A program made the translations under genes and the position numbers. The notes under the pieces are model-generated. The model worked only from the letters and a program-made list of their open reading frames with translations. It was not told where the DNA came from and searched no databases. 64,000 nt of DNA from Ulva prolifera (lineage: Eukaryota; Chlorophyta; Ulvophyceae; Ulvales; Ulvaceae): the NCBI GenBank assembly GCA_023078555.1, contig CM041204.1, positions 220,923-284,922 on the forward strand. Direction: 5' to 3'. Positions 15,331 to 50,091 of the stretch are shown in pieces (position 1 is the stretch's first letter; the number at the start of each line of letters is the position of its first letter).

Positions 15331-18258
15331 TCACTCAATCTCGACGACCTCGCCATGGTGCTTTACGCCGGGCACGAAGAGGCCAGCATCGTACTCTGCA
15401 CGGCCCCTTTTGCAATCCTCTGCTGCAGCGGGCGAGTCGCACGTGTGGACAGACGACCGCTGCCGCTTCTTGCCCCACCCTTCAACCTCCACCGCATCGG
15501 CATCTGCCCTGCCTTCACCCCCAAGCTGCAAAGCACGTGTCTCAAAGGCAGTGGGTGTTTCGGCCGCATTGCCGCTAGCTGTGTACTGACACACGGGGAG
15601 AGAGACTCTCATGTCCGCTGCAGTGTGCGGCGCCTCCGCCACCGCTGCAGCAGGCCGCTCCTCGACCGCAGCAGCCGTGACAGCAGCATGCGGCGGTGGC
15701 ACAGGCGCCGCAGCGGCAGCACCCACTTCAGCGGGACTGCAGCCCAGCTCGATGCGTTCCCCGCCTGCACACCAGCGCTGGGTGGTCGCGCCCAATCGCA
15801 TGTAACAATACCGAATATTAATGAATATGCAGGGGTATTTTCTGAAAGGTAGCCCTGAAAAATGCCGCAAAGGGACCCAGCACTGCTGCACACGCTTGCA
15901 CCGCTCGCTGGTCAACAGTGGAAAGTCACCATGCTTGTGGGGTGGGGGGTGTATAGCGCTGTAGGTCGCTGAATGTAGAGTCCGTGATGGCCATGCATGC
16001 TGCCGCCACGTGTGGCCGCAATAAAATCTTGCCAAATGGCATGCACTGCTGGCCCCTGTCACCCATGCGCACACCAATATTATCAGACTTTCTGGATTCT
16101 TTCGACTCATACGCTGCAAGATGTCTTGAGATTTTGTGAACAGAAGTATGAACTGCTGTGCTGCCGAGCCAGTGCTGGTGGCTATAGTATACAGGACACC
16201 AGTGACTTCTCGCCCCGCGCTGACTGACAGTAAAACGCCATAATTGCAAAGTGGCACCCTCACCGCCCTGCAAATCTATGCAGTCATACAACACCGGCAC
16301 TTTTGCCGCTTCTCCAGACGGCGATGATGCAGCAGCAGCCTCTAGAGGCCGCTCCTCCATAGACACGCGTATACGCGTGGCCATTCCCGTCCCCGGCTAT
16401 TCTTGAGCTGAGCCCGCTGGCGGTGTGGCATTCTCGACGGCATGTGCATCAGCCACTTGGGCGAGCGGCATACCTCCTGAGTCGGCGCTGTGGCTCAGGC
16501 GACCTCCAGCGGGTGCAGAGAGGGCACGGATGACCTCGACCGCCTGAACCCTCCCCTCTCTCAGCTGTCTGATGTACGGCTGAAGGCAGTCTGTGAGGAG
16601 CCGGACGCATTGTCCATGCACGGCACACGCCGCCTCATGCGGGCCCGGGGGAAGACGCCATGCAAACCATGCCTTCTGGCGACGATGAGTCAAAACCGAT
16701 ACGAGGCCGAGACGGCAGCCAAAGTGGACCTGCGCCGCAGACACTGGCTGTGACCACGGTGAGCACTGCCTTAGCTCACAGGGCGGAAGGATCGCAACAG
16801 AAGAATCTCGCAAGCTGCTGAAGCATGTTTCATGTTGCGCACGTGCGTTGAGCACAAAGAAAGATGCTGTTCAGTGTTGCGCACATTTCTCCGTTTAATC
16901 CTTTTTATGCCGTCATGAAACCGCTGAACCTGATACCGTGGTACAAGGTGGCTTACGTGCCGGTAGTACCAGTTGCGGTCAAAGGCTACGATGGCGTCGG
17001 GACAGCACTGATCGGATGCAAATGGCGCAAGCTGCAATGCGTTGTACAGATCTTTATGCCCACGCCAAGATGGAGCATTTGCAGCCTTGGGGACTGCCTC
17101 GATAACATCAGAGTCACGAACAAGCTGAAGGTCGCCAATATCTGCAAAGGAGCGCATCTGCCTGCCACCAGTGGTCGGTTCAGTGCTGTCAGGGGCCATG
17201 CCGGTCCGGACAATGGCCATGGGGGCGCATGTTGCATGCGCATCATGATGGCGGGCCGCCTGCTGCAGTGGCGGGTGGAGCGAGAACGCGTGGCCACGAT
17301 AATGGCGCGCAGGTTCGGCAGCCCGGGCTGCCGTGAAGACAGCCGAAGCTGCTGACACGCGCGCCAGCGCCGCCACCTCGTCTCTGCATGCTTCTGCCCT
17401 GTCGACTGCCGCTGTTGCTGCCGGTCGGAATGCTGCTGCTGTTGAGAACGCTGCTGGTCCTTGTGGCGTGGGAAAGAGCTCAGCTGCTTCCGTCGGACAA
17501 ATCGCCCGGGCTGGGGCCATGCTGGGCTGCAACGCCGCAGCAATAGATGATGTTCGAGCTGCTGGCCGCAGCGGAACGCGAGGCTCTGCTGCCGCCGCTG
17601 GTGCCGCTGCCGCTGCTGCTGGCGGACGCTGAGGCGGCGCCTGAGCTTCTGGCTGCGCCACGGGCCGGGACGCTGTTGCTGCTTCTGCCGCGCCTGCCAG
17701 GAGAGCCAGCAGGTCTGCTTTCGATGGTGCTGATGCGGATCTGCCTGTGCCTTCGAATGTCTGCCCGTTTTGAGCCCGTGTTGACCCTGAGCGTGCCGGC
17801 AATGCATCAGTCTCACACAGCTGTGCACTTGAGGGCACTCCCACAACGCCACATACGTTTGCTGCTTCAGCGGCCGCCTCGCCCAGACTTGAGCCTGCTG
17901 CCATTGGCGCTGCAGCTGGCGTCGATGGACTGAGACCTGGACTGGCCTCGCGCACCACGAACGCAATCACGGCAGGGTCGTAGCCCTCGCTCGCACGTGC
18001 AACCTTCAAGACTTTGCATACGTGATCTTTCGGGTCTTGCACTTCGGCGCCGGTACCGTCTGCCAGAGCTCTCGACTGCTTCAGCAACACGCGTAGCAAA
18101 ACCACGTCGCGCGGCATCTCCAGTTCAAGTCTATCCAGGAGCTCTGAGAACGTATCGGTAGAATACACTCTCACGACCTTGATATCAGTAGTAAAGAGGC
18201 TTTTGTTATGCTCATCGACAACACAAACAGCTTTGAGAGTGTACTCCGCGGTGGCCAT
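15331..18258 (-). CDS. Unrecognised nuclear-type protein with SUMO-interaction-like tail, paralog 2
   Basis: Three exons on the minus strand: 18258-16885, 16729-16474, 15764-15331 (687 codons plus stop). Donors are GTGCGC and GTATGC, and all phases match paralog 1. Conserved parts are the N-terminal domain (MATAEYTLKAVCVVDEH to SEGYDPAVI), the block VRDSDVIEA to KRIKRRN, and exon 2 with FAWRLPPG. The middle is Ala/Gln/Pro-rich and of low complexity. Exon 3 has a basic cluster GKKRQR and ends HGEVVEIE, a SUMO-interaction-like tail. Intron 2 is much longer than in paralog 1 (709 vs 270 bp) because a hAT-like MITE sits at its 3' end; the acceptor GTGTGCAG is one copy of the MITE target duplication. 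The ATG at 18258 matches that of paralog 1. Function unknown. Confidence 0.72.
15773..15885 (+). mobile_element. hAT-like MITE at a 3' splice site
   Basis: 113 bp with terminal inverted repeats CAGCGCTGGGT and ACCCAGCACTG. A perfect 8-bp target duplication CTGCACAC lies at 15765-15772 and 15886-15893. Internal sequence (CCGAATATTAATG, AGCCCTGAAAAATGC) matches the copies at 18777, 28653 and 46739. An 8-bp duplication with CAGNG termini fits the hAT superfamily. On the gene strand the duplication is GTGTGCAG and forms the last eight bases of intron 2 of paralog 2. Confidence 0.88.
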
Positions 18259-18484
18259 GTTGAGGTTATGCGCAGCACTGTAGCGGTCTGACAGCGAGCA
18301 CCACTTCCAGGCGAGCCGCAATGTGCGTGAATCATCGAATCAGTGTGTTCTACGCAGTGTAGCGCCGGTCGCGTGCAATGGCGGAGCTGCCTGGTCGAAT
18401 TCCTTCGTGCTTCAAGGTCTCTCGCGAAGAGTCGGTACATGAGTCATGGGACCCTCCTCATCTTTCAGGCTGCATGCAGCGGGC

Positions 18485-18905: not shown

Positions 18906-20534
18906 GTACACACTCCCGGCTGTCATGACCCCGAGGTGTCTGGTCGTCTCCGCGATGCAGGAGTCCCTAGGCTGCGGGCCCTCTCCGCTGCCTGGAGTCT
19001 GCGTAAAGGTACACCATATGCATGGCCTGGACCCGGGCAACCACGTCCTCGCCAGGGGGAAGGATAGCATGGGGACAAGCTGTCACAGGGGCCACACACA
19101 AATCAAATCCGATTTACTTGGCTGTACATACAGCTTGTGATAGTGCTGGAGACGAGTGGCATGGCCACTGGGCAGTATGATCGCTCACGAGCCAGCGTCA
19201 TCGTATGCGGCCGCCATCATGGGGGCAGCAGGGGTGATCCTGGTGCAGGCGGAGGAAGCAGGACCAGGAGGACGTGCACCCTCATGCAGGCGGATCTCCG
19301 GCAGTTACTGTGCAGTCATGCGGATGCATGGGCCACGCTGCTGTGAGCTACATCATCATGCAGGGGATTTCGCGTGCGGGGATGTCCCAGATGTAAGACG
19401 GGCATGCTTGCACATTGTGAAACTGTCCTCACGAACTCACACTGATACGATGATATAGATATGACACAGCTACCAGGAACTCTTTTGGAACAGGATGATC
19501 GGAACAGCAGCGATGACTGGGATCGAAGTGTAGGGAACCAAGTCGTCTGCCACCGCCCTGCACCGCTGCTGGCTGTGTCATAGCCTTTGGTGCCTAGGCG
19601 CCCTGCACCGCAGCTGCGGTGAGGGGCTAGGTTGCGGGTCTTATGAGGAGCACACTGGAATCGATGGCATATTGTATTATACACATGCTCACTGCACAGT
19701 CAAAGTAACATCACATTGTAGTCCAGGACATTCAAAGCTAACAGACGGCAGCATCAACCAATACTGCCAGTGCATGCACCCCGGTGTATGTGACGCATCA
19801 CTGCATCCACTAGAGCTGCATCGCATATTCATTCACGATGTCCGGCCCAAACACAACAGGTTATATATATCAGACGGACGGACCCTCCAAAATGGAGTCC
19901 GACTGTGGGTTGGGCAGCCCTGGGCACAACTACCAGGCATACGGTGCCCTCCCTCATCTCGGACTGAGACCCCAACAATCCATATCAAAACATGCGACTG
20001 TCAAGCACACACAACAGAGGCCTCGCAGCCGCAGCCTACACGCATGGCCACCTATGCAGCTGTGGCAGATCAGCAGGCATCGCCAGCTACAGTTCTCAGC
20101 AGCCATCTCTACACAAGCACCTCTGAAAAAGAAATGCAACGGCTCAGACATTTCTGCACTCACAGAGCGCTCTGTACAACACAGCACCACCAGCATCCAG
20201 GCTGCTTGCGATCGACACGTCTCCTCACTGATGTCTCCCGGGAGACTCGTGTGTGTACAGCGATCAGTGTTCGGCTGTCTGGCCTGACCCCCCTAGGACG
20301 ACTCTGAGCATTTGTCTTCTTGTTTTTTTTCTCTCAATTTTCAGGATAGCAGCCCCGTTAACCACAGGCAGCACGACCCAACAGGCAAGCATACCAGCCT
20401 GCTTCAGTGTGCCCTGGCTCAACAGCCAGCCTCGGCCAGCCAGTGGTCCTGCAGCGCGCCTCACTGTAACTACATACAAGTCTATATCATATACAAGGCC
20501 CCACTCTCTTCCCAAGGCAGCACAACGGCGCCTC

Positions 20535-23500
20535 TCAGCAGCCAATGAGCCCCTGTGACCCTCTGGCCGGGTGGGCGTTGCCGAGTCCCCCGATCGCGCG
20601 GCTGCTGCTCGCCATATTGCAGACGTCACCGGCGTTCCCGACAAACTTGCACTGTGGCACGGCGACTGTGCAGTCTCGGCTCATCACCGTCACCCCCGGG
20701 CCTCCGTTCTGCAGCAGCTGGCACCTCTCGAGCTGGCACACAGGTGGCTGGCAGCACTGGGCGCGTAGCGCATCCTCCCCCTTCCCCCCGGCCGCCCCAT
20801 GCATGAGCTGACTGTCCCCGAACACGCGCCCACCTCCCTGCGCCCCTCCATGCGCGGCAATCAGTGGAGAGGACATCATCTCTTGCAGAGTCATCACCAT
20901 GTCGTCCCGCACGAGGACGCCGCTGGCGCCGCATCGCTCGAACGTGCTGTTCTGTGCTGCCACCTCCACTCCACGAAGCACCTCCACCCCGTCCCGGCCG
21001 CAGTCGGCGACGGTGCACCGAGACAGCTCCCCCTTGCTTCCGCTCAGGAACAGCAGACCGACGCGGCCGCGGAAGTTTGCGCTGCTGGCTCGGAGGCTCG
21101 CGGCCGCCTCGACAACACATGCCGGGGCCGGCCCGTACGCGCAGCATGCACCCTCCTCCACGTCCATGCGCGCGGTCGCCTGCAAGTGGAGCCCGCAGCC
21201 TTCTGCCGCGAGCACGTGTGCCGGGCTGGAGTTGACGTTGCAGCGGCAGTCCTTCAGCCGCACGTACGCCTTGCCTGACACACTCACGCCCGAGACGGAG
21301 TTTGCCTCGAACATGCATGCGGTGCACTCGGCGCAGCTCATGGAGCCGTCGACCTGGAGGCCCCCCCGCAGGCCCCCCTGCAGGGTGCACTGCTCCAGTT
21401 TGGCTCGCGCTCCTTTGCTCACGCACACCGCGACGCCGGGCTGGAATATTGTGCAGCGTGTCGCGACCAGGTTGGCGGCGCCTCCGGCCACTACGACCCC
21501 AACCCTGTGAGCATTGTTGATGACCACCTTGGTCAGATGGACAGCCGCATTTTCCGCAATCACGCCACGTGCTGCGCAGCGCGAAATCTTGCATGCATGC
21601 ACGGCCGCGGACGCGTCGTCCATGACGTGTACACCGTCGCCGAAAGAGGTGATGATGCAGTTGTGGACGACGATGTGCGCGCACGCGGCGACCTGGAACG
21701 CGCAAGGGTGGGCCTTCTCGAGTCGGCCGAGCATGCGGGATGCAGTGAGGGTGGCATGCGAGCCCGCGCCGCGGACATGCACCCCGACAAACGAGATATC
21801 CCGCAGCGCCACCTGCGTGCCGTAGAAGGCTGCGCCGTGCTCGATGAGGAGCCCCGCCCAGGCCTCGATGCGGAGGTTCTGGGCTGAGACGCCTGTGCCT
21901 TGGCCGCGCGCGGTGAGTGCGTAGCAGAGGGTAGAGCCCTGCAGGCCTTTGAAGGAGACATCGTCGAGCGTGGCTGTGGCGCCGTCGATGACGAGCAGCA
22001 CACACCCGCTGAAGCGGCAGGACTGGAGGGAAGTGTAAGATTGCGCCCCGACGCAAACCACGGTGCCACCTGTAGGCACCAGAGCTGCAACAATGCATGG
22101 ATCTATGTGCGATTTCTGGAATGCCTTACATCTAGAAAACAGATTCGAGTTCAACGCACTGCTCGGAACGTCGTGATACAACATGTTCAATGAATGTACT
22201 GCTATGCCCGGCAAACTCTGTATGCGCAGCACCAGGCATCCATGCCACCTCACACGCTGTAGCACAGAAATCTGACGAATCTGGAGACCGCCCAAACTAT
22301 GTCAACAACAATGACAATTGGCTGCTTAAGGGAAAATGGCTTTAGCTACGCTTAAGCAGCAGGTGTGTCATAACATGGCACCTGTGTTGCTACCACAACG
22401 CCACGCAGCGCAGGCGGCCACAGGAGCACTAGGCCACATGCGTCACAACGGCCAATCAGGATTGCACGCACAGGCGCTCACCTTCAAACACGACCCTCTC
22501 GAAAGAGACGTTGCAGAGCTCATCCAGGACGAGAATGCCGCTGCGGCCCAAGCGGATCGTCCCATCTGTGACTGTGCCGCCACCACGCGACACCCGCGAC
22601 ACCACCGCTCCGCCGATTGACATCTTTGTCCGTTCCGGCAGCCAGTCATGTGCCGCGAGCGCAGCAACCACGGCCTGGCCGTGCTGGGTGGGCGGCCAGT
22701 GGCTTCCGCACATCGACACCGCCGCCTTGTGCAGCGACACCCGGTCTCCATGCTCATGCTGTGACAGCCACGCACACAGTTCCGCCTGCGTCTTGATCGC
22801 GCCGTCAGCATCGGGTTGTTCGGACGGGGCGGGTGAGGGCGCACGCGCGGGCCCGCGTGCGGCCGGGCTGTGGTCCAGTGTTGGCACAAGGGTAGCAGGG
22901 CCGCGTGTCAGGGGCGCAGGTGCTGGTGCGATGGGCTGGAGGTAGCGGGGTGTGTGTCCACAGCCAACCAGGTCGGCGTGCATTTGTAGCAGCTCTGCCT
23001 GGACGTCGGCCAGGTGTGGCCGGTCGGACGGCTCCATGGCAACCATGCGCTGGATCAAGGCTCGGAGGGGGGCATGGATGCAGTTGGGCACATGCATGCA
23101 CTCCCCTGCACATGATTCAGGGGGTTCAAAGGGCTTGCACATTGCAGAAGCGCACGGGCGTCACCGGTGACGGCCGCACCGCACATGCATGTTGAAGTCT
23201 CACTCCCCGATAGGTGCAACAATCGCACATGTGAACGCTGCAGGCTGCCCCTGAGGCAAGTTTGATCACATAGCCAGAATCAATGATGGGTTTCGCACTG
23301 CCCACATGGCATGGCGCACAGTGGAGAGTATTGTCCAGCATAGCGTTCATGAATGTTGGGCATGCATGGACAGCCGCACCATCATGGAGGCGCTGGCTGA
23401 TAGCCATTATGCCTGCAGCGCCGTAGGGGTGGCAGCCCGCCGCCGCGAACTTCAGAGTCGCGCCGAAGCTGTACACATCGCTCCGCCGCATCGCACGCCC

Positions 23501-24770
23501 TCGGAGCTGCTCACGGGGCGCGTACCCTGGCGTCCCCCGCGCCACTCCATGCGCCTGCGCGTTGGAGTCCTGCGACGACCCGAGCAGCGACGAGGTCGCG
23601 CAGGCGGGCAGGTGCGTCGCAAAGCCCAAGTCCGCCAGCTTGACGACAAAGGTGTCGGGGCACCGGCCGGCGCCTTGTTGGGATGCGCCCCGCGTTCGCT
23701 TGATGAGGATGTTGGAGGGTTTAACGTCGAGGTGGAGGTACCGCGCGCTGCGGTGCACAGCGTCCAGCGCGCAGCACAGCATGAGGCCCAGCGTCACGAC
23801 GTCCAGCGGCGGCAAGCGGGGGCGACCGGACTCGCGGGCCGCTTGGTGGACGAGGTCAGTGAGCGTGCCTTGGCACCGCTCCATGACGAGCCTGCATGTG
23901 TGCGGCAGTCAGAGACCGTAGAGGAAGACACACCCATTGGCGGAAGAGCAAACCATACAGAGCAGTGGTCACTTTGCTGCTGCACAGTGGAGAAACCAGC
24001 ACCAGCACTGGCACTGGTCGGGTCGGCGCAGGGATTTGCAACACCGGCTGGTTAAACCGTTCTGTTAAATGCTTGGGCACCGTCCGCAGATACACCTCAG
24101 CAGCGTGCCTGCCGCAGCTGACAGCCTCTGCACCACATGCATGGCTAGCAGAAGAAAGGGGGAAGAAACCGCACCAGAGCTCAGAGTCAGTCCAGCAGTA
24201 GCCATGCAGCTTGCACACGTGCGGGCTCGCAGCCGCAGCCAGAAACGATGCAGCAACCACATGCCGCATGCTCGCGGTGTCCTGAGCACGCCGCGGCGCC
24301 AGATGTACCACCTTGACCGCCACCGGTTCGCCGCCGAGGTTGCCGGCAAACACCGTGCCCTCGCTCCCGCCGCCGATGCGCTCCCCGAGTGCCACATCGC
24401 CGCAGCACAGCAGCGGCGGCGCGACCCCTGTCTCCTCCGCGCACACCGCGGCGGCGACGGCGGCGTCCTCCGGGAACGCCGAAGAGGTGTCCAGAGGTGC
24501 GTTGCAGAGGGGGCACTGGCCGTTGTGAGCGCAACTACGGCCGCCGGTACGCGAGACGACAAAGCCGCAGCATGGCATCGTGACGGGGCGGAGGGGGCCG
24601 GTGGCTCGGAGGGGCATGCCGAGGATGAGGCAGGTGGAGAGGTTCAGGCGGCTGCGCTGCACGGCGGCCTGCATCACGGCAGCCCAGCGGGAGCGGGAGG
24701 GGCCAGCGCCGCCAGAGGTGGTGGTGGGGTCGGAGGCGGGGATGCCGACAGGGTTCACAGGTGCCTGCAT
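20535..24770 (-). CDS. U-box + protein kinase + right-handed beta-helix protein (N-terminally shortened paralog)
   Basis: Four minus-strand exons: 24764-24175, 23891-23380, 23105-22482, 22084-20535, with phases 2, 1 and 1; the ATG at 24770 can start the frame (about 1,093 codons). Order of parts: a short disordered segment (NPVGIPASDPTTTSGG); a U-box-like fold (RPVTMPCCGFVVSR, GQCPLCNAPL, PEDAAVAAAV); a kinase with IGGGSEGTVFAG, VAVK, LWLVMERC, catalytic loop LHLDVKPSNILI (Arg of HRD replaced by Leu; Asp, Lys and Asn kept), DLG instead of DFG, GTPGYAPREQ and SDVYSFG; a Pro-rich linker; a helical region (AELCAWLSQHEHGDRVSLH); then about 500 residues of beta-helix repeats of the pectate-lyase type rich in Cys and Val. 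The catalytic residues suggest an active non-RD kinase. A signalling E3/kinase with a beta-helix sensor is inferred. Confidence 0.8.
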
Positions 24771-24960
24771 GATGGCTGGTTACAGTCAGCGGACGCAGTT
24801 GTGGGATGCGAGCGTGGCAATGGCGGCCGCAACGGTGTTACAGTGTACAATTGGCCATGTAATGATTCCAGGGCTATGCTAATGGTGAAGTCCACCACTC
24901 AGGGTGAGAGTGATAGACCATGCATAGACGCAGAAAAGCATAGTTCTGTGCATGCAAGAT

Positions 24961-24984
24961 GGGGGGGGGGGGGGGGGGGGGGGG
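24961..24984. repeat. 24-base G homopolymer in an intron
   Basis: It lies just inside the intron after the coiled-region exon remnant (donor GTGAGC at 25002-24997, minus strand). The right duplicate has only short C-rich sequence there. Length is prone to sequencing error. Confidence 0.8.
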
Positions 24985-25002
24985 CGGTGGGGGCAAGCTC
25001 AC

Positions 25003-25105
25003 CTGGACGTTGCCAGCCTGCATCGCCGGTGGCAGCAGAAACTGGTCCTGGAGGTGCTGCTGTTGGCTATGCATGAGCTGCATGCATTTCATCATCTCGT
25101 ATGCA
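25003..25105 (-). pseudogene. Remnant of the coiled-region exon of the left paralog
   Basis: Encodes MQLMHSQQQHLQDQF and ends AMQAGNVQ before the donor CAG|GTGAGC, matching the end of the long exon at 33902-33332 (FQHLQDQF ... RQAGSRQ and the same donor). Similarity stops near 25105, where the sequence jumps to what in the right copy is about 35977. All further N-terminal exons are therefore missing in the left copy. This remnant would join in phase with the U-box exon at 24764 if transcribed. Confidence 0.7.
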
Positions 25106-28100
25106 GGACAGATGTTGTTCTGTGGTGCTTTGCAATGCCTGAGGTCGTGGTAGTTGCGAATGCCGCGTTGTGATTGCCAAAACACTGACGTGTGTCTCGG
25201 AATGCACGATGGCGTGTATCCGTCGTTGTGGACAGGTTCGGGCCTACTGGACCGTCACAGCTGGCTGTGCTTTGTCAGTGCTGCCTTGCTGTACATACAC
25301 CCGCAAGATGACGTCGACCGCATGTGCGAAGTGTCAGTCGATTGCAAAGCTGATGAGCTGATATATTATATCCAAGCCAAGCATGCTGCTGCAGCGAGTT
25401 GTTATTTGGCCGGGGACAATGGAACCCGCAGGAAACTGCCTCGGCAGGTCACACACACTCGAGAAGGACAATCCGCTGGTCCCACCAGCGGCAACAACTG
25501 ACACATTCGACCATAGTAAGATTGTCAATGCGGCGCTGAAAACCTGAAGGGCGCATCGGTGAGCCTATAGACCGGTACCGTTATCGAGTTGGAGCTACTC
25601 TTGGTTCCAGGCCACGACACCGTGCAATCTGAGTGAAATGGCAGATATACAACTAAGAAGGGCGAGCTGTTGGCATGCGCGGCCTTGCGTATAATCAGTA
25701 GTGAGCAAACAGCTGCCCGTGGGAACGCTTTCGTTGCACAGGTCGGTCGGCTGTATGTTGACTGCCCTTTGGAGCCAGTGATGGAAACTTGACATTCAGT
25801 AGTATTGCAGGTCGGAAACCAAAAACCTCGCGCACGCAGAGGTCCGTAGCACGGGAATGGCGCAACGGCCAGCAGAATCAAGCGTCGACCAAAATGGAAC
25901 CGCCGAAATGAGAAGGCTAAAGAAAGGACATGTACACATGTGAGCAGAGTATCATTTAGATTCGACTGGATTCGAATCACAATGGAGACAGGCTTGAGGG
26001 CACGCGCGATGCCTGCCAGATTCTTGTGGCTTTCGAAAGTGTCCACGCAATACCAGACAGGACTTGAGCATGAATCGGTAGATTCACGAACGGAAACAGG
26101 CTGATTGAACGCAGTGCGGCAATGTCTGCTGGCTGACCCAGTCGATGGAGAAAATTGGACCTCTCGAGGTCGGTACCGGTCAGCCGACAACGCACGAGGC
26201 GCATCAGTGCGCACCATACGACGTCAACACCCAACAAGCTATATGTGCTTGCACCAAAGTGACAAATACGAGAGGCATCGCACTTGCGGGCAACGGGGAA
26301 ATGCGGTCGCAGGTCGGTGACACGTCAGCTATAGCTGGCAAGTCCGCTTTGGCCAAGCTTGGGGCAGATTTGCGTGTTCACACCACTGTGCAGCCGTTTG
26401 CCTACTCTGAGAGTCCACTGTTATCAAAGCGCCTGCTTCGCAACGTTGCTCCTAAGATGAAGTTTCTAATCTTGGTTTCAAGCGCTGCGTCGGAACGTAC
26501 AGGTACCTAAATGGTCCCGGCACGAGATCTGCTTCCATGGTCAGCTGCATCGGCTCGTCTACGGGATCAGCCGACTCTGAGGACATGTAACGTGTGACGG
26601 ATGTACATCAGTGCAGATTAGTGCATGTAGAGACGTAGTGGAATCAGTGCTGCGTCCCCAGCCGCGGTGTGAGTGGTGCCTGTGCGCCGGGGAGGTCCAA
26701 ACATGCAGAGGGAAAAGGGCGCATCACGCATGCCCAGCTGGGCATGTGCCTGGAAGCTGGTCAACCGCCATGGCTTGTCGATAAGCGGATGATGTGTTAT
26801 GATTGCATGAGCAAGATACCGATTTCAGCACAAGCTCAGCTTCCGATTTCAGCACAAGCTCAGCTTCCGATTTCAGCACAAGCTCAGCTTGTCGACCTGG
26901 CAAGCCATCTGCCGGGTCGAGGAAGTGTGGCAAGGCGTGGCGGAGGTGTGGCGGAGTCCTGCTTGCCTCTTCAACAGGTCAGCGAGGGCCTCCATCCCCT
27001 CCACACAGATGGAGCCAATGGCCTGGCCTTGACTTGCGCAAAATCACACAATTCCGGATCGGAAAGACATGGTTGTAAGCAGTGTAGCCTCAGTGAACTA
27101 GCGGCGACAAGCGGGCTAGCGTTCCCAATCAAAGGCAATTTATATTCCTGCGCATGCCATGTACGCGCATCGGACCGCGATTGCAGCACATCGACACAAA
27201 TCTATCACATGGCCTGAATCGCATGATCATGATCTAGCTTCAGCTGATATTGACGTCGCGGCCGGATCCAATTGCGCCGCTCCTCGTTAGACGACCGTGC
27301 CCGTGCAGACCAGCCATTGTGTGCAGACTGGATCTGCAAGGTGTCGGGTCTTGTATTGGTTTTGTCTCCCGAGACAGCAGGCGTCGTGGGGCCGTTGCTG
27401 GACGTTTGGGATCAACTTCGTGGACGATCAGGTGAGCTACAGCTAGCTCAAGCCAACCAACCAGATTGACGTTAACGGACTGCCTGCGTGTTAAGCCTTT
27501 CGGCACCATTGTGTGCCGGAAGTACTACACATGCAGTCTGTGGGCCGAGAACTGTTGTCGCACGCTCAGCGTGTGGTTTCCCAATATGCCGCCCCTTTCC
27601 ATTGCTACTTAGAGTCTTTGGCAGATTATGTAGCTGCACCTCCCGCGTCTGGTCTGTGATGCCCCTCGCAAGTCTCCTGACCACGTTGCTCGCCACAGCT
27701 TCATTGCTCCTCGATCGCACCGTCGGACAATCAAAAGAGTCGGGAGCAGCAGTCACGTGAACTTACAATATCTTTGCACCAGAGCTGCGGGCAAGACCGG
27801 AGGTGTCCACAGAACAGGCTCTGCAGTACCATTTCTGTTTTGAACCCAACTGCTCCACTTAAGGAGAGGGGTTTGCTCTCGAGCGCGGGCCATGCGCATG
27901 TCCATTGGGAAGGCGGGGGACTCGGACATCGCCCAGAGTGTATACAGACTCACACTAACATCCTGAATGCCCTCATATCCCTTCCTAGAGTCCCTGGGCA
28001 AAATCGACCTTTTCGACGAATTCGCATGCATGCCCGGCCAGAATGGCCCATTGTGCCCAGGGAGCGCTCACAGCGCCCTGCGCGTGCCCAGCGCATGCCC

Positions 28101-28480
28101 AGTGAGCGTAGGACACCCTTAACAAGTATACATTCATTTCTTGGGACGTTCACATTGACGATCGATTGCTGTGGAAGGTGGCCTAGCCCGAGTTCATGAG
28201 GTCATGTACTGTCATCTGTAAGCTCATCTGGAGGCTGCTAGGAAGCTGTTCTGCACAATTGGAGCGCGATCAAACATCAATGCGAGTGTTATCCACTCCC
28301 GGGGATGGTCTTTTTTTATCGCTCTGTGTTTTTTGGTTGCTTCAGTGGCTATGAGACCATAGTTGTCCAGTGTATATGGCATGGGTATCTAATTACAGCC
28401 TTCGATATGCCTGCATGCAAACGTTACAGTCACTAAATCGGCTTTGGGTCTCAAATCGGCTTTGCAACTCTAGCGCAGGG
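25106..28480. other. Intergenic part of the left duplication; no confident gene
   Basis: Matches 35977-38765. Plus-strand frames such as VLVLSPETAGVVGPLLDVWD (27345-27405) are conserved between copies but are interrupted here. A 230-codon minus-strand frame at 25525-26217 is not conserved in the other copy, so I do not call it. Confidence 0.5.
26818..26891. repeat. Three-copy 24-bp minisatellite
   Basis: The unit CCGATTTCAGCACAAGCTCA plus GCTT is repeated three times. The right duplicate (about 37727) has a single diverged unit, so the expansion happened after the duplication. Confidence 0.85.
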
Positions 28481-28652
28481 AACCCCGAGCCGCAGCCAGC
28501 CGCCCTCGCATGGCAAGCTTGCTAGCGCACACTCCACCATGGCACCGCCACGCGACCTGCGCCCTGCTGGAGCAAAGCCCACAGTTATCACACAGACCCG
28601 GCTGCAGCTGCGGGTCCACGTGCCGAATCAGCAGGCACGCACGCGTACACAC

Positions 28653-28760
28653 CACTGTTGAGTCATCGGGCCCGGGCCCGATCACATAGAACAATTCCGA
28701 ATATCCATGCCTAATTTTTGGGTGGCAGCCCTGAAAATGCTGCAAGGAGACCCGCCACTG
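28653..28760 (+). mobile_element. hAT-like MITE with perfect 8-bp target-site duplication
   Basis: 108 bp, starting CACTGTTGAGTC and ending GACCCGCCACTG, flanked by GTACACAC at 28645-28652 and 28761-28768. Internal sequence ATCACATAGAACAATTCCGA and GCCCTGAAAATGCTGCAA is the clearest family consensus. Confidence 0.87.
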
Positions 28761-29815
28761 GTACACACTCCAGGCAGGCAGCATCTCGAGGTATCTGGTC
28801 GTCTCTGAGACGCAGGAGTCCCTGCGGGCCCTCTCCGCTGCCTGGAGTCTGCCATACGCATAACCCGGACCCGGGCAGCTGCGTCCTTGTCAGGGGGGAA
28901 GGATAGCATGCATGGGCACAAGCTGCCACAGGGGCCACACGTGTGTACACAATTGTGTACACAATTCAAATCCAATGTACTTGGCTGTATATACAGCTGG
29001 TGATAGTGCCGGAGACGAATGGCATGGCCACTGGGCAGTGTGCTCGCATGCATACGCGCCAGCGTCCTCGTCCTCGTACGCGGCCGCCATCAGGAGGGCA
29101 GCAGGGGTGACCCTGGTGCGGGCGCAGGAATTCCTTAAGCAGGACCGAGCGGACGTGCACACTCATGCAGGTGTTCGATTTCGCGGCAATTACTGTAGGG
29201 TCGTGCGGATGCATGGGCCACACTGTTGAGGGCTCCATCATGATGCAGGGGATTTTGCGTGCGGGGATGTCACAGATGTAAGACGGGCATGCTTGCACAT
29301 TGTGAATCTGTCCTCACGAACTCACACTGATACGGTGCTACAGATGTGACACAGCTACCAGGAACTCTTTTGGAAAAGGATGATCCGAACAGTAGCCTTT
29401 GGTGCCTTCGTTGAGGCGGGCTAGGTGACTGGTGTGATGAGGGGCACGCCAGAACTGATGGCACATTGCAGCACGTGGTCACTACACAATCAATGGAACA
29501 TTACAATGTAATCCAGTCCACATTCACACCCAAAAGGCGGCAGGCTCAACCACTACTGCCGGCGCATGCGCCGCAGTGCACATGACACATCACAATCTCC
29601 ACAGGGGCTGCATCGCATGTACATTCACGATGTCCGGCTCAAACACAATAGGTGATCAGAATGACGGACGCTTGAGCGTCCACATGATGTCCGTTAGGGG
29701 GGGCACGACTCTGGGTTGGGCAGGCCTCGGCACAACTACCGGGCATGTACATACGTGGTGCCCTCCCTCGTCTCGCACTGAGACCCCAAAAATCCATATC
29801 AAAACATGTGACAGT

Positions 29816-29817
<2 letters not shown>

Positions 29818-29901
<84 letters not shown>
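29818..29901. repeat. (CA)n microsatellite, about 42 units
   Basis: Uninterrupted CA dinucleotides, present only in the right duplicate; the left copy has a short ACACACAAC at about 20010. Confidence 0.95.
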
Positions 29902-30413
29902 AGAGTCCTCACAGCCACAGCCTACACGCATGGCCACCTGTGCGGCTGTGGCAGATAAGCAGACATCGACAGCTAGAGCTCTCAGCAGCTATCTCTACAC
30001 AACCACCAATAAAAAAGCAATGCAACGGCTCAGACGTTTCTGCACTCACAGAGCGCTCTGTACAACACAGGACCGCCAGAGTCTAGGCTGCTTGCGATCA
30101 GCACGACTCCTCCGAGTCACTCCACAACGTCCGCGACGCTGGTTTGTGTACAGCGATCAGTGTTCTGCTGTCTGGCCTGATCCCCCTAGGACGATTCCGA
30201 GTTTTTTCTCCATTTTTTCTTTTCAACTTTCAGGATAGCAGCCCCGCTCACCACATGCAGCACAACCCAACAGGCAAGCATACCAGCCTGCTTCAGTGTG
30301 CCCTGGCTCAACAGCCAGCCTCGGCCAGCCAGTGGTCCTGCAGCGCGCCTCCCTGTACCTATGCTATATACAAGCCGCCACTCTCTTCGGCAGCACAACG
30401 GCGCCTCTCCGAG

Positions 30414-33400
30414 TCAACAGCCAATGAGCCCCTGCGGCCTTATGGCCGGGTGGCTGTTGCCAAGACCGCAGATCGCGGGGCTGCTGCACGCCATATTGCA
30501 GACGTCACCAGCGTTCCCGACAAACTTGCACTGCGGCACGGCGACTGTGCAATCTCGGCTCATCACAGTCACCCCCGGCCCTCCGTTCTGCAGCAGCTGG
30601 CACCTCTCGAGCTTGCACACAGGTGGCCGGCATTGGGCACTTAGTGCATCCTCCCCCTTCCCCCCGGCCGCCCCATGCATGAGCTGACCGTCAACAAATG
30701 CACGCCCGACTCCTTGCGCCCCTCCATGCGCGGCAATCAGTGGAGACGGCACCATCTGCTGCAGAATCATCACGATGTCGTCCCGCACGATCACTCCGCT
30801 GCCGCCGCATCGCTCGAACGTGCTGTTCTGTGCTGCCACCTCCACTCCACGAAGCACTTCCACCCCGTCCCGGCCGCAGTCGGCGACGGTGCACCGAGAC
30901 AGCTCCCCCTTGCTTCCGCTCAAGAACAGGAGGCCGACACGGCCGCAAAATTTTGCGGTGGTGGCTCGCAGAGTCGCGGCCGCCTCAACAATGCATGCCG
31001 GGGCCGGCCCGTACGCGCGACACACACTCTCCTCCACATCCATACGAGCGGAAACCTGCAGGTGGAATCCACAGCCTGCGACCTCCGCCGCGAGCACATG
31101 CGTCGGGGTGGTCTTGGGATTGCAGTGGCAGTCCTTCAGCCGCACATTTGCCTTGCCGGACACGCGCACGCCCGAGACGGAGTTGGCGTTGAACTCGCAT
31201 GACGTGCATTCAGCGGAGCTCCACGCGCCGTCAACCTGTAGGCCCCCCATGAGGCCCCCCGTCAGGACGCACTGGTTCATCTTGGCTTGCGCTCCTTTGC
31301 TCACGCACACCGCAACTCCGGGCTGGAGGATCCTGCAGTTCGTCGCGTCGAGTTTGGCGTCGCCCCCGGCCACAACGACCCCCTTCTCAAGAGCGTACTC
31401 GATGTCCACCCCCGTGAGGTTAATTTCTGCGTTCTCCGCGATCACGCCACGCGCGCCGCAGCGCAAAATCTTGCATGCATGCAAGGTCGCGGACGCGCCA
31501 TCCATCACATGCGCGCCGTCGGCGAACTTGGTGATGTTGCAGTTGCGGATGTCAACTTGTGCGCGTGTGGCGACCTGGAACGCGCAGGGGTGGCAATTCT
31601 CGCGTCGGCCGAGCATGCACGACTCGGTGAGCTCGGCGCGCGAGCCCTCACCGCGGACATGCACGCCGACAAACAAGATATCCCGCAGCGCCAGGTGCGT
31701 GCCGTAGAAGGCTGCGCCGTCCTCGATGAGGAGCCCCGCCCAGGCCTCGATGCGGAGCTTTCGGGACTCGACGTGCGTGCCTCGGCCGCGTGCGGTGAGT
31801 GCGTAGGAGCGAGTGGAGCCTTCCAGACCCTTGAAGGAGACCTTGTCGAGTGTGGCCTTGCAGCCGTCAATGACAAGTAGGACGCACTCGATAAAGCGGC
31901 AGGACCTAAGGCCCATGTGAGCTTGCGACCCGAGGCAAACCACGGTGCCACCTGTAGGCACCCGAGTTGCATTAAGCGCAATACTTTGGACCGTGATTAT
32001 GTCAGGCCGCGTGCAGTTTCGATTTAACGTACCATCAGACACATAGTAAGAGGCGCGCTAGATTGGCATACTACAATGCACCGTCGAGCTCAGTATGGGC
32101 AGCACCAGGCTTGCATACCACCGCAACTTGAAGGGGCGCTGCAGCACACAGAATTGACCAATCGGGAGACCTCCAGAATCCTGTGAAAGATCAAGAACCC
32201 CAATGGAATGCTGTTGGATGCAAGGTAAAGCACGCAGGTAAATAGAAGGGGGCCTATGTCGCATGGCGATCGCATTCATTGGGGCGGAAGCAACACCAGG
32301 ATGGCATCGTGTGGCGATGGCCACCGAGGTCTGCGAGGAGCTCACCTTCAAACACGACCCTCTCGAAAGAGACGTTGCAGAGCTCATCCAGGACGAGAAT
32401 GCCGCTGCGGCCCAAGCGGATCGTCCCATCTGTGACTGTGCCGCCACCACGCGACACCCGCGACACCACCGCTCCGCCGATTGACATCTTTGTGCGTTCC
32501 GGCAGCCAGTCATGTGCCGCGAGCGCAGCAACCACAGCCTGACCTTGCTGGGTGGGCGGCCAGTGGCCTCCGCCCATCGACACCGCCGCCTTGTGCAGCG
32601 ACACCCGGTCTCCATGCTCATGCTGTGACAGCCACGCACACAGTTCCGCCTGCGTCTTGATCGCGCGGTCAGCAGCGGGGTGTTCGGGTGAGGTGGGTGC
32701 CTGCTCATGTGCGGGATCGTGCGCGAACGCGCTTGCAGACGGGTTGTGCTCCAGGGCTGCAAGTGTAGGCGGGCTGCGTGCCAGGGGCGTGGCTACGGGT
32801 GCGATGGGCTCGAGGTGGTGGGTCTGCGCGGCAGCATGCATCGCGGTGGCCTGGCGGGAGCGGGAGGGGCCAGCGCCGTCAGAGGTGGTGGTGGGGTCGG
32901 AGGCGGGGATGCCGACAGGGTTCACAATCGCCTGCATGATGGCTGGACACACTCAGGGCAGGTTAACATGTGGGTCGCCCGTGTGGTAATCGCGATGTAA
33001 AAACTGGCATGGTACACAATCAGGTGCGGAGCGATATCAGGTTAAAAACTGACAAATTTCTGCTATCAGTGCAATCTATAACTGATGTTGCAGGTGATTG
33101 ACGGTGTGTGCGCGCCATGAAACGGGCGTGTGCATCGCATGTTTGTTTACATCATGATGCTGAACATGGCGAGCAATGCCCCCGCGCATGCACTCGGTCC
33201 ACGAGGGTTTGGGGCTGGGCGGCAGCAGCAGCAGCAGCAAGTCTCACGACGGCAGCAGCGTAGTGTGGACTGTCGTCCAGGCATTGCACAGCATTGTTCA
33301 GGGCAAATTGGGGGGTTGGGGGCAAGCTCACCTGGCGACTGCCTGCCTGCCTCGCCAGCTGGGAGGCCGGTGAATCCACAAACTGGTCCTGGAGGTGCTG

Positions 33401-34809
33401 AAATTGGCTAAGCATGTCCTGCATGCATTGCATCAGCTCGTCCTGATTCGCTGCCATCTGCCCCTGGCCCCGTTGCACCTCCTCCAACGTCTCCTGTACA
33501 ACGTGAAGCACCGCAGACGAGCTGTTGAGGTCACCGACCTCGTGGAGGATTTTCGCCGCAGCAGCGTCCAGCTTCACATGAATGTCCGCGCAGCCATCGA
33601 GCACGCGGCGCGTGATGTCGCCATGCAAATCCCGCATGGCGCCGTGCAGCGTGGTGAGCGTCTGCTGCACGTCAGTCCTCGTGGCGCCGCAGTGGGACAG
33701 ACCGTCGACGGTGGTGGCGATCTGGCGGAGGTGGTACGATGACTCAGCGCACTCCCCCTGCAGGGAGACGATGCGGCGCAGCAGGTCGTCGAGCGCGGCC
33801 TCGATGCCGCCGCTGGAGGCGAGGGAGACGGTGAGCAGCGGCAGCAGCTGCCGCACCTGCGCCTCTATGTCCCGCATCTTCTTCTGCACATGCGCCGTCA
33901 CACTGAGATGTTGAACACACATACTGCAGCTGCCAGAGGAAGCATGTCCATGTGTCCCCGTCTGTGAACCTCTGAGAAAGTGCCTTAACACCAAGTCTGG
34001 ATGTTGACAACAAAAAGGTGAAAGCGGACGCAGCGGTGTGCATGGCCAGCATGCATGCAGGGTTGGCGCAACTGTATCTCAGCGCAGTCACTAAACTAGA
34101 CTTGCAGTCGTACCCCGGCGCCTGGAGCGGTACATGTCCGCATTGGTTTGGCCGGGCAATCATGCATTCATAGCCGCACACACATTCATGGAATCCATGC
34201 ATGCTTGGTTGCCGCGCATTGCCTTCGACGTGTACAGGCCGGCACTTCAGGAAGACCGGATCCGGTCGGGAGGTTCGCGCGCACCTGCTCGTTGCGCATG
34301 TAGAAGGGCACCGTCACGAGGCTGCGGTCGGTGTACTTCTCCACCTTCGTGGACGCCAGCTCCAGCAGCGCATGCAGTGCGTCGACGACCGGCACGGCAC
34401 CCTCCGGCACCCGCTCGACTCCATTCACCACCGTCTTCGTGGCTTCCATGAGCCTGCACTTGCCGGCGAATGTGAGGATGCGCTGCAGATAATGCTTGCG
34501 CCCAATGCATTTGCGATACGTTGGTTGACTAGCTATAGCTGGGCTGCTAGCACTCATCCTACTTTTGTAACGAATCCGGTGCGGCGCAACGACAACAGCT
34601 GCAAGGCAGAGGGCACCACGGCCGCAGGCATCACGGGCATCACCCGACGAGCGGGGGTTGTTGCCCAATGTGGGCAGCCCCGCCGCTAATCGATCTGCGC
34701 ACCGAGAAAAGCTCTTCATTTCGCCATCGCGGGCCTTGCAGTCCTTGTACAGCTTGCGGCCCTTCTCGACCAGCTGCAACAGCAGCTCCAGACCCTCGAG
34801 CAGCGACAT
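30414..34809 (-). CDS. Helical-bundle / coiled / beta-helix protein: paralog lacking U-box and kinase
   Basis: Minus-strand exons I can place well: 33902-33332, 32931-32346 and 31951-30414, with phases 0 and 1. Two earlier exons are likely near 34809-34650 and 34495-34270, but their junctions are uncertain. The start MSLLEGLELLLQLVEKG and the later segment HALLELASTKVEKYTDRS resemble in pattern the N-terminal four-helix bundle of MLKL/HeLo-type proteins. The next exon is helical and heptad-rich (QVRQLLPLLTVSLASSGG onward). The exon from 32931 starts AIVNPVGIPASDPTTTS exactly as in the left paralog, but after SRSRQATAMHAA it passes straight to HHLEPIAPVATPLA, which lies behind the kinase there; U-box and kinase are cleanly gone. 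A beta-helix of about 500 residues ends the protein. Membrane or cell-death roles are speculation. Confidence 0.68.
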
Positions 34810-34999
34810 CGGCCTCCTTCACCACTTGCTTGCAGTTTGTTCAGGCACAACCTGACCTGTTCAGATGTGTGTGCAGACCAGAAAGTGCAGCTGCAGTGTT
34901 CAACGTGTGCCCTTCCTGCCGTGTGCCCCACTACGCTTCAACTTGGGACTATAACGATGGCCGCCTTCCGGGACCAAGCTCGATGCGGCTCAGGAATTC

Positions 35000-35975
35000 C
35001 GGTGTATTAGTGTGACTCGATTGATTGATCAGGCGCCGCGCAGCGGCTCTGCGCCGGCCAGTGCTCCGAGTCGCTGTAGGCTCGCAGGTTGCTGTCAGTA
35101 GCTGCAGAGGAACTGTCGCAAAGCAGTGCTTGGAAGTCCTGCGGTCCCTGCAGAGGCCGCATCCGAGCTTGTAAAGCAAAGAAAATTGTTTCATGTTGAC
35201 AACAACATGAATAACATGTTCGACTGAGCTTCCTTCAACGTGCAAGGCACGGCATGAGCGCTCATGAAGGGTGGCGTGTACGCAGGGATTCAAGTCTGTG
35301 GATCTTATGCGCGTTGAGGTGTGCCTTGCAAGCATCTCTCTGCCAGCGGCTGTGTGCGTGTGGCTACAAGGGCGCTCGTGAGTTCACAGACCGCCTGCAC
35401 GGTGTGAATTTCATCTCATTGTCTGGGCGCACACATGTGCTCGTCAGTGACATTGTTCCGGGGCCCACTTTCCTGGCATTCGGTGAATGTCTCTATTGAC
35501 AAGGACATGATCAGCAGAGCAGGTGTGCATGCATGTGCGGGTGTGCCTGCAAGCACACACGCCTGCAAGCAATATTACATATGTCACTCCCTCTCCGTGG
35601 ATTCTCTCTCAGTGAGTATTATCCACCACAAAGCGTCCCACCGACACTGCAAAACCACCGCTGCGCGGCACTATCGTCAACGCCCTGTCATGTCAGCTGA
35701 CATGTAAGGGCCATTGGGAGGCAACGCAGTGCATGCATGTGCATGCAAAAACAAGCGGCCCGCAGCTCGAGCTCTCAGGCCAGATGGCCAGCAATCGAGA
35801 GGAGGTCGGACGACACCATTTGTGTGTGGACGTGTGTGGCTGTGTCAGAGTGGCTGTGGCAACTTGACGCTGTTGTGCAGTGGGGGGCAGGGGCCAGCGC
35901 ACGGGTGAGTGGGGAAGGCAAGCACTGTGCGCAGAGTAAATCTGGATACTGAAGCACTTCATCCACATAGCATCG
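35000..35975. other. Upstream region of the right multidomain gene; no gene seen
   Basis: Lies before the minus-strand start at 34809 and is absent from the left duplicate. No conserved frame, TATA block or repeat family was recognised. Confidence 0.4.
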
Positions 35976-38159
35976 AGGTCGTTCTGTGGTGCTGTGCAAT
36001 GCCTGTGGTGGTGCTTGGCCCTCCTGCGATGTGCTTGTCATAACACGTACCTACGTCTCGCGAGATACATGTGGATACACGATGGCGTGTTACAAGGATA
36101 AAGGCGTGCACCCTTGCCGTGGACGGGGTTGGGCCTACTGATAAAGCCGGCTGTGCCTTGCCAGCACTGTCTTGCTGTATATACACCCGAAAGATGACGT
36201 CGACCGCATGTGCGAAGTGTCAGTTGACTGCAAAGGTGGTGAGCTGATATATTAAGCCAAGCATGCTGCTGCAGCGAGTTGTCATCTGGCCGGGGTCGAT
36301 GGGACCGGCCGGAAACTGCCTCGGCAGCTCATCCATACTCGGAGAAGGACGAAGCCTGGTCCCAACAGAGGCAACAACGTATATCTTTGACGTTACTAAG
36401 CCACTTTCGATGCGGCGCAAACACGCATTGGTGAGCCTATGGCCCAGTACCGTTATCGAGTTGATGCCAAACTCAGCGCCAGGCCACGACACCGTGCAAT
36501 TTCAGTAACACCCCACCAAAATAAAACTAAGAAGGTAAGCTGTTGACATGTGCGGCCTTGCGCCTAATCAGCAGTGAGCAAACAACTGCCTCTGCAATTG
36601 TGACCGCTTTCGTTGCACAGGTCGGGTGGCTGTTTGTAGACTGCCCTTTGAAGCCTGTGATGAAAGCCTGACCTTTAGTAGTATTGCAGTTCGGATACCA
36701 AACATCTCGCGCACGCAGAGATCAGTCACACGGGAACGGCGCAACGCTCAGCAGAAGCAAGCGTCAACGGAAACATGGGACACGCGTAATGGCAAAAAAC
36801 ACAGGTATTCATGTGAGCAGAAGATTGTCTGGATTCGACCGGATTCGCATCACACTGTAGACAGACTTGAGCTCGAGTGGACGCGCGCGCGATGCCTGCC
36901 AGATTCTTGGGGCTTTCGAAGGTGTCCACGCAATAGCAAACAGGACCTGAGAATCAATCAGTAGATGTCGTGAACGGAGTAGGCTGGTTGAGCACAGTGC
37001 GGCAATGTCTGCTGGCTGACCAAGTCGGTGGAAAGAATGAACCACTCGAGGTCGGTACCGGTCAGCCGACAACGCACGAGGTGCATCAGTGCGCACCATA
37101 CGACATCAACACGCAACAAGCTATATGTGCTTGCACCAACGGGTCAACTACGAGAGGCATCGCACTTGCGGGCAACGGGAAGTGTGGTCGCAGGCCGGTG
37201 CCACGTCAGCTAGCTGGCAAGGGCAGATTTGCGTGTTCACACCACTGTGCAGCCGTTTGCCTAATCTGAGAATCCACTGTTGTCAAGGGGCCTGCTTCGC
37301 AACATCGCTTCCAAGATGAGGCCGCTTAGTCTTGGTTTCAAGCGCTGCGTTGGAACGTATAGGTAACGAAATGGTCCGGGCACGAGATCTACTTTCATGG
37401 ACAGCTGTACATGTGCGGCTTGTCTACGGAATCAGCCGAATCTGCGGAGATGTGACGTGTGACGGACGTACATCAGTGCAGATTAGTGCATGTAGAGACG
37501 TTGTGGAGTCAGTGCTGCGGCCTGGCTTGGGCAGGTCCAACGGTTGTTGGGGCCCACTGGCATGCCATGCGTGACAAAAGATGGGCCCATGGGGGTAACA
37601 CGCGTCTGCCGTTCACTATTGTGTCGACACGCGTGTGCCTGGAAGCATGTGCCTAGAAGCTGGTCAACCGCCATGGCTTGCCGATAATTGGCCATGGATG
37701 ATCTGTGATGATTGCATGAGAAAGGTCCCGATTTCGACAGAAGCTCACCTCGTCAACCTTAACAGGCCGTCTGCCGGGACGAGGAAGTCTGGCTTGGCGT
37801 GGCGGAGTCCTGCTTGAGGGTCACAAAAGAGTGAACGGAAGAAGAGTCCCTGAACAGTTCAGCGAGGGCCTCCATCGCCTCCAAATATACGAAGCCAATG
37901 GCCTTGCCTCGGCTTGCGCTTGAACACCCCAATTCCGGATCATAGACACATGGTTGTAAGCAGTGTAGCCTCCGTGAACTAGCGGCGACGAGCGGGCTAG
38001 CGGTCCCAATCAACGGCAATTTATATTCCTGCGCATGCCATGTACGCGCACCGGACCGCGATTGCAGCATCTCCACAAACCTATCACATGGCCTGAAACT
38101 CGTGTCTTCCTTCGCGGGCCTACTGCATGATCACGATCTAGCTTCAGCTGATATCGATG

Positions 38160-38956
38160 TCGCGGCCGGATCCAATTCCGCCGCTGCTCTTTAGACAACC
38201 GTACCCTTGCAGACCAACCACTTTTTCACAGTGTCGGATCAGGTATTGGTCTTGTCTCCCGAGACATCATGCGTCGTGGGACCGTTGCTGGACGTTTGGG
38301 ATCAATTGCAACTTCGTGGACGATCTGATGAGCTACAGTTCAAGCCAAGCAACCAGAAGAACATTAAATTACTGTCTGGATGTCAAGCCTTTCGGCTCCA
38401 TGGCGTGCCGGAAGTATTGCACATGCAGTCTGTGTGCGCCGAGAACTGTTGTCGCACGCTCAGCGTGTGTTTTCCCGATATTCTGCCGCTTGGTGTTACT
38501 GCTTCGTGTCTTTGGCAGGTCACGTAGCCGGAGCTCCCGAATCTGGTCACCGACGGTCTGCGATGCCCCTCGAAAGTCTCCTGACCACATTGCTCGCCAC
38601 AGGTTCATAGCTGCCCGGTTGTACCGTCGGACGATCAAAAGATCCGGGAGCATCATACTGTGTCGCGTGAAGTTATATCTTTTTCACCAGAGCTGCGAGC
38701 AACACCGGAGGTGTCCATAGAACAGGTATTGCAGTACCTTTCTGTTTTGAACCCACCTGCGCCACTTTCATGGCTTCTGCTCACGCTAGCTGATGTGGCC
38801 AGCTTGGTTGCTCTGTTCGTCAGATTGTTCGATGTTTGTTCCGTTCCATTTGGGCATCAGCACCGGCACTTCCATGCCGACACACAACATAGCAGCGGGA
38901 GCAATGTTTCTGTAATGGGGTACCAACGTTGCAGTGGGCCGGCCTGCTTCCACTGA
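38160..38956 (+). CDS. Hypothetical plus-strand gene fragments conserved between duplicates
   Basis: Two plus-strand stretches look protein-coding by comparison with the left duplicate. 38207-38527 carries VLVLSPETSCVVGPLLDVWD and later FRLHGVPEVLHMQSVCAENC; 38660-38956 carries PEVSIEQVLQYLSVLNPPAP. In the left copy the same segments (27330-27840) have frame breaks. I recognise no family, and joining exons, start and stop are not established. They could be remnants of a gene that decayed in one copy, or chance conservation in a young duplication. Confidence 0.25.
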
Positions 38957-39059
38957 ATTCTTAAGCTGTATGCTAAGTGTGTGACTGGATGGCAGTCACC
39001 ACCGGTTTGACCCAGCAATCGTTGCGGCGTGTTACAAGCCAGCTGCCAGTCATCTCAGA

Positions 39060-39172
39060 GGCTGCTGCAGCATTGATGACTCCATCGCTGCACGCTGGCT
39101 CTGCTGCAGCATTGATGGCTCCATCGCTGCACACGCTGGCTCTGCTGCAGCATTGATGACTCCATCACTGCA
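39060..39172. repeat. Three-copy tandem repeat of about 42-44 bp
   Basis: The unit GCTGCTGCAGCATTGATGAC plus TCCATCGCTGCACGCTGGCT occurs three times with small changes, the last copy incomplete. Confidence 0.85.
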
Positions 39173-39257
39173 GCCATTCACCCGTTGTCACAAAATCTGT
39201 TGTAGCTGTCGTGTGCTGGAGCCATTCCAGGACCTTCTGTGATACCTGCCTGACCTT

Positions 39258-50006: not shown

Positions 50007-50091
50007 GTTCACAAAGGAGTGAACAGAAGAAGCCATACACCAAAACCGAATCTCATCCGAAGGAACAGCAACACACACACACGATAACACC
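50007..50091 (+). mobile_element. SINE-like copy with 10-bp target-site duplication
   Basis: Flanked by ACAAATCTCG at 49997-50006 and 50092-50101. Head GTTCACAAAGGAGTGAACAG, core AACCGAATCTCATCCGAAGG, CA-rich tail. Confidence 0.82.

Follow-up and report, generated by a model that had tools for sequence, protein, structure and literature searches.

Two neighbouring genes of the green alga Ulva prolifera raise the question of how proteins that end in the same right-handed beta-helix came to begin so differently, one of them with a protein kinase and the other with a predicted helical region. The genes, referred to here as left and right, lie on the minus strand of a 64,000-nucleotide stretch of contig CM041204.1 (assembly GCA_023078555.1, positions 220,923 to 284,922). 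This whole stretch is called the window, and it corresponds to C9:220923-284922 in the genome that was searched (88.9 Mb in 44 contigs); loci elsewhere are given by contig and position. Rubisco small-subunit genes on contigs C1 and C9 mark the genome as one of the green lineage, in all likelihood that of a chlorophyte. The left and right genes are tandem duplicates of a unit of about 10 kb. The order of domains in their ancestor was N-terminal helical region, coiled region, U-box/RING-like module, kinase and beta-helix, and each copy carries one internal deletion of the stretch that is kept by the other, so that the left product is a kinase and beta-helix protein and the right product a helical and beta-helix protein.

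A blastn comparison of the left copy (19000-28200) with the right copy (28900-39300) aligned them in seven blocks that are 74-89% identical. The 5' flank is common to both copies over about 2.7 kb, as two blocks of 74.9 and 78.7% identity (25111..27860 on the left and 35975..38767 on the right, both read on the minus strand). Two clean and sharp breakpoints account for the difference between the genes: left positions 25111 and 25100 are adjacent where the right copy spans 35975 to 33441, and the helical exons are gone from the left gene; right positions 32824 and 32822 are adjacent where the left copy spans 24657 to 22949, and the U-box-like module and the kinase are gone from the right gene. 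The explanation of the duplication as an artefact of assembly was rejected because the copies differ by about 20%. The preliminary description had proposed a common origin with reciprocal loss, and both parts of this proposal are borne out by the aligned flanks, the shared exons and the complementary deletions; the signatures on which it relied, namely the same donor CAG|GTGAGC at 25003 and 33332, a common start of the next exon (NPVGIPASDPTTTS) and the linker QPIAP or EPIAP behind the kinase, are present in both genes.

One stretch of the linker exon differs much less between the copies than the beta-helix exon does, which suggests a recent gene conversion. The linker exon is overlapped by a 300-bp patch of 98% identity (22472-22771 vs 32336-32635) that covers the end of left exon 4, and the synonymous divergence (dS) of the linker-exon stretch is 0.038 over 106 codons, compared with a dS of 0.385 and a nonsynonymous divergence (dN) of 0.137 over 509 codons of the beta-helix exon. 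Over these 509 codons, the left-right dN/dS ratio is 0.36, a value that shows constraint on the beta-helix at the protein level.

Each of the two genes could be modelled as five exons that form a single closed reading frame, with GT-AG at all 8 introns of the pair, and both deletions leave the spliced frames open. The left gene (25095-20535, 1117 amino acids) begins with a 3'-end remnant of the helical/coiled exon (25003..25095), in a region that aligns over 132 bp with right 33441-33310 at 76.5% identity; the start codon is placed at 25095, with an in-frame ATG at 24770 as the alternative. Exon 2 (24175..24764) is an open frame encoding a linker, the U-box/RING-like module and the kinase N-lobe with its VAVK motif, and is 59% identical to the copy at C9:180304. 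The catalytic part of the kinase (HLDVKPSN, DLG) is encoded by exon 3 (23380..23891) and is covered by the Pfam Pkinase match to the spliced product. Exon 4 (22482..23105) contains the end of the kinase, a proline-rich linker and the first beta-helix turns, the latter judged from relatives, and exon 5 (20535..22069) carries the beta-helix matched by Pfam Beta_helix and closes with the stop codon at 20537-20535.

The right gene (34809-30414, 983 amino acids) opens with the first helical segment of the N-terminal region in exon 1 (34703..34809), which ends with a phase-2 donor at 34703 and is followed by an intron opening with GTGCGC; the same junction recurs in a copy on C1. Exon 2 (34285..34453) encodes the next, MLKL_N-like helical segments and has homologous exons at the loci L036-L040 and L042. 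The N-terminal exon had initially been taken as one piece, a description that has to be replaced by these two exons, 34809-34703 and 34453-34285; the frame between them (34702-34454) was considered as coding and rejected, as the splice phases, like the C1 copy, indicate an intron here. The last helical segment and the coiled region are found in exon 3 (33332..33883). Exon 4 (32346..32931) is the linker devoid of the kinase block, followed by the first beta-helix turns, its junction 32824/32822 corresponding to left 24657/22949, and exon 5 (30414..31951, stop codon 30416-30414) encodes a beta-helix similar in protein sequence to that of left exon 5. A model joining the left and right genes into one was also rejected, given that the right stop at 30416 lies 5.3 kb before the left start.

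Are there undivided genes of the kind that the ancestor is supposed to have been? Genome searches, which score the best candidates only and therefore give lower bounds, detected at least 72 matches to the left module and kinase, at least 27 to the right coiled exon (itself included) and at least 34 to the module of a paralog, 26 of the last above 100 bits. When these 26 U-box/kinase loci were paired by script with the 27 helical matches, a helical exon was located for 23 of them, lying on the same strand and 520-830 bp upstream; those without one are the left gene, C1:12383909 and C1:12343292. Conversely, no module was paired with the helical exons of the right gene, C1:1506408 and C1:12331660; a fourth unpaired match, C9:182180, is part of the gene at C9:180304. 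On this evidence, the common form is the one that combines helical exon, module and kinase, and the window pair is derived. The undivided ancestor that had been postulated from the window alone has living counterparts elsewhere in this genome.

The DNA downstream of the kinase was read at 5 of the 25 loci outside the window. A beta-helix follows the kinase at C1:12449903 and C2:2289761, in both cases above the Pfam cut-off, and at C9:1117613, where it was recognised by eye; at C1:12263137, the first beta-helix exon is reached at the end of the piece of DNA that was read, and at the fifth locus, C9:180304, a proline-rich tail takes the place of the beta-helix. One open frame of the C2 copy runs from the end of the kinase into the start of the beta-helix; in the C1 copy (L018 + L026, C1:12446107-12452996), the two lie in different frames, so an extra intron probably separates them. 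Six exon junctions of the C1 copy were compared by eye with the window genes. Four of them agree in position and phase at either end; for the other two, agreement was established at the acceptor, the second exon most likely having its donor at a GT a few codons further upstream and the donor of the third not having been located. Outside the window, helical exons 1 and 2 were both seen complete in the C1 copy alone, and a tentative helical exon 1 was noted far upstream at C9:1157.7k.

By hand count, the 26 copies are distributed over C9 (10, with 7 in the first 0.33 Mb), C1 (11, with 9 in the last 0.49 Mb), C36 (2), C4 (2) and C2 (1). The two C36 copies, which lie on a small contig, have the same scores as copies on C9 and may be alternative copies. 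Clustering near the ends of the C9 and C1 contigs, together with turnover, would fit recognition genes and is proof of nothing. Among the more divergent or incomplete loci, the solitary helical exon at C1:1506408 (L041, C1:1504908-1508291) has no U-box/kinase match within 4 kb downstream and is perhaps another shortened copy. L044 (C5:4528542-4530483) comprises relatives of the first two helical exons followed by a glutamine/alanine-rich tail, with no kinase recognised by eye in the piece read; L050 (C3:8855801-8857700) is a distant relative in one long frame, with a CPIT-type cysteine module and then a weak kinase match; and L023 (C9:289044-289202), on the plus strand, is a short piece of a kinase that contains an in-frame stop.

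Incomplete loci of this sort bring up the explanation that both window genes are decaying duplicates without function that are heading for loss. Each of the two is missing a large block, and the genome contains the further solitary helical exon at C1:1506408 and the kinase fragment with a stop at C9:289044, as such decay would produce. However, frames of 1117 and 983 codons have stayed open although the copies have diverged at about 20% of their nucleotides, the spliced frames are intact after the deletions and the dN/dS ratio is 0.36, so that we regard functionless decay as unlikely.

The identities of the kinase and the beta-helix, both named in the preliminary description, are secure from profile matches. 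The left product matches Pfam Pkinase (PF00069) above the cut-off (89.1 bits vs 31.7, E=4e-25), retains the catalytic motifs VAVK, HLDVKPSN and DLG, and resembles many kinases of known structure (best E 9e-16, among the best 60 of 769 sequences). It also matches Beta_helix (PF13229) with 98.3 bits against a cut-off of 25.9 (E=4.5e-28), a cut-off that is likewise exceeded by the C1 copy (27.6 bits) and the C2 copy (28.3 bits); the beta-helix exon of the right gene owes its label to 77% protein identity to the left one in a 512-column alignment. The catalytic motifs vary among the copies, for which reason the family may include pseudokinases alongside active kinases. In the C1 copy the loop reads HLDLTP, and both DFG and the catalytic-loop lysine are missing, making it a probable pseudokinase; at C9:1117613 and in the C2 copy, HLDVTP is found together with DFG.

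The module preceding the kinase is more difficult to classify. Its cysteines C15, C35, C36, C54 and C57 are invariant in five members, and its C-terminal helix is presumably U-box-like. The nearest relative of the left module is found in the gene at C9:180304 (L045 + L030, C9:174201-182376). A search of the PDB with the module profile gave 16 sub-threshold matches (best E 0.034), 11 of them to proteins whose names identify them as ubiquitin ligases or RING finger proteins, though ten of these fall within one group (Arkadia, RNF165, ARK2C) and do not count as independent; a twelfth, NOT4, we take to be a RING protein as well. In Pfam, an Rtf2 RING match in the C2 copy (E=0.18) and a zf-C3HC4_3 match in the C1 copy (E=0.15) stayed below the cut-off. 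The Pfam U-box model (PF04564) had 16 matches in the genome, none in the kinase/beta-helix family, Pfam scans of the family products up to E 1 returned no U-box, and hhalign comparison with six U-boxes was at the level of chance, with 20 and 21 of 100 shuffles scoring as high. The label of U-box, under which the module was originally described, could therefore not be confirmed, and a RING/U-box-like module is possible.

The same data bear on the explanation that the family consists of ubiquitin ligases resembling the plant PUB-ARM proteins with an inserted kinase, the left gene encoding a ligase and the right gene a dominant-negative form or an adaptor. The conserved cysteine pattern, the form of the C-terminal helix and the ligase and RING proteins among the weak matches would agree with it, but the family is absent from the genome matches of the Pfam U-box, and no likeness was found between the N-terminal region and one PUB N-terminal domain (UND), for which 51 of 100 shuffles scored as high in hhalign. 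This explanation is accordingly considered improbable.

For the N-terminal helical region, a resemblance to the MLKL/HeLo bundle had been suggested. The joined N terminus of the right gene aligns with Pfam MLKL_N below the cut-off (15.4 bits vs 27, E=0.013, residues 48-105 on model positions 47-104). When four family members were compared by hhalign with human and mouse MLKL, the score was 24.4 over 74 columns, which was reached by 0 of 150 shuffles of the target columns and 0 of 150 of the query columns, and the reversed controls scored 13.9 and 16.8. The likeness is carried by the right gene, since without it the score falls to 13.9 and is reached by 17 of 100 shuffles. Neither of two other scanned members matched MLKL_N, a genome search with the model gave 3 matches, 0 over the cut-off and 0 in the window (one of them, C5:4529505, being a distant relative of right exon 2), and the N-terminal alignment had 5 PDB matches, none of them MLKL (best E 0.27). 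Other weak Pfam matches compete with it: Mus7 (0.027) in another member and SesA (0.021) on the coiled part of a right model that reads through the intron. We take the likeness to MLKL as weakly supported, with the right gene as its source.

This likeness is the basis for an explanation of the family in terms of cell death, according to which a four-helix bundle permeabilises membranes upon kinase activation, the right product being the executioner and the left product its kinase, as in RIPK3 and MLKL. According to PMC9950082, plant MLKLs have a HeLo bundle and take part in immunity, and in view of the weak MLKL likeness and of the accounts of MLKL and plant MLKLs in PMC9950082 and PMC11476962, a role in cell death would be plausible. 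The shuffle and reversed controls speak for such a relationship, but the sub-cut-off match with competitors of nearly the same strength, its dependence on the right gene and the failure of the other members and of the PDB search to produce MLKL speak against it, and we consider this explanation possible though rather doubtful. A bolder variant, in which the genes would be receptors built on a new plan, with the beta-helix sensing, the kinase switching and an MLKL-like bundle killing, and in which the halves in the window would pair through their shared beta-helix like RIPK3 with MLKL or like paired NLRs, is very unlikely.

The reading that we tentatively favour, with slightly less than even confidence, is that of a lineage-expanded kinase family with a solenoid sensor, two members of which have been split by deletion and which would act in intracellular signalling. 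The beta-helix solenoid is assumed to serve as a sensor or docking surface that binds a ligand or partner, the kinase would act as the switch, and the helical region could be the output that self-associates or acts on membranes or partners. The left copy would then correspond to a sensor kinase deprived of its N-terminal output, and the right copy to the output part, which could be recruited or restrained via the shared beta-helix and would not signal alone. Several points weigh against this proposal. Ligand binding by the beta-helix is an assumption, and the beta-helix profile had no relative in the PDB at E 0.01; the helical fold of the N-terminal region is a prediction from sequence; the gene at C9:180304 has a long proline-rich tail in which no beta-helix was recognised, so that the C terminus is not fixed among the relatives; and the dN/dS ratio of 0.36 includes the time before the deletions and is no proof that both shortened genes work.

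In the rest of the window, a copia-type retrotransposon frame (756-3131, minus strand, RVT_2 5e-44) is overlapped by an inverted repeat whose arms of 777 nt (1-777 and 829-1605) are 99% complementary and 51 nt apart. This frame was the only one to match among ten other frames of the window compared with Pfam at E 0.01, and no Rfam family matched in the window at the gathering threshold. Two long minus-strand frames, 8911-10515 and 16771-18339, begin alike (MASAEYTLKAVC and MATAEYTLKAVC) and have no Pfam match at 0.01. At 44035-64000, repeats about 7.3-8.9 kb apart suggest that a unit is present three times in tandem, and six frames within this region had no Pfam match at 0.01.

With about 26 loci in one green alga, the family provides candidate algal recognition or immunity genes, in a field in which, to our knowledge, few receptors are known. 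The window pair in turn is a clear case of tandem duplicates that have lost complementary domains, and undivided relatives are available for comparison. The architecture had been called unfamiliar from described proteins, in agreement with which no account of a single protein uniting a helical bundle, a U-box/RING-like module, a kinase and a beta-helix was found among the listed titles and abstract openings of open-licence papers. In viral contigs, the alignment of module and N-lobe gave 39 pattern matches and no confirmed relative.

Among known systems, the plant and animal MLKLs share with the family an N-terminal helical region before a kinase domain and a weak likeness of N-terminal sequence, which is below the cut-off and carried by the right gene; the family differs from them in adding the coiled region, the U-box/RING-like module and the beta-helix. 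Plant PUB-ARM U-box ligases consist of a helical domain, a U-box and an ARM solenoid, and the order of helical domain, U-box-like module and solenoid is the same in both, whereas in the family a kinase stands between module and solenoid, a beta-helix replaces the ARM repeats and the U-box is unconfirmed. In plant U-box kinases the U-box follows the kinase; these proteins likewise unite a U-box or U-box-like module with a kinase, but in the family the module precedes the kinase and the beta-helix comes after it. As to the NLR immune receptors (see also PMC9950082), the common features would be a helical N-terminal effector, a central switch, a C-terminal solenoid and lineage-specific expansion, and the differences are that the switch of the algal family is a kinase, its solenoid a beta-helix and its immune role putative. 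The parts of the algal proteins are of known kinds, and their combination appears to be new.

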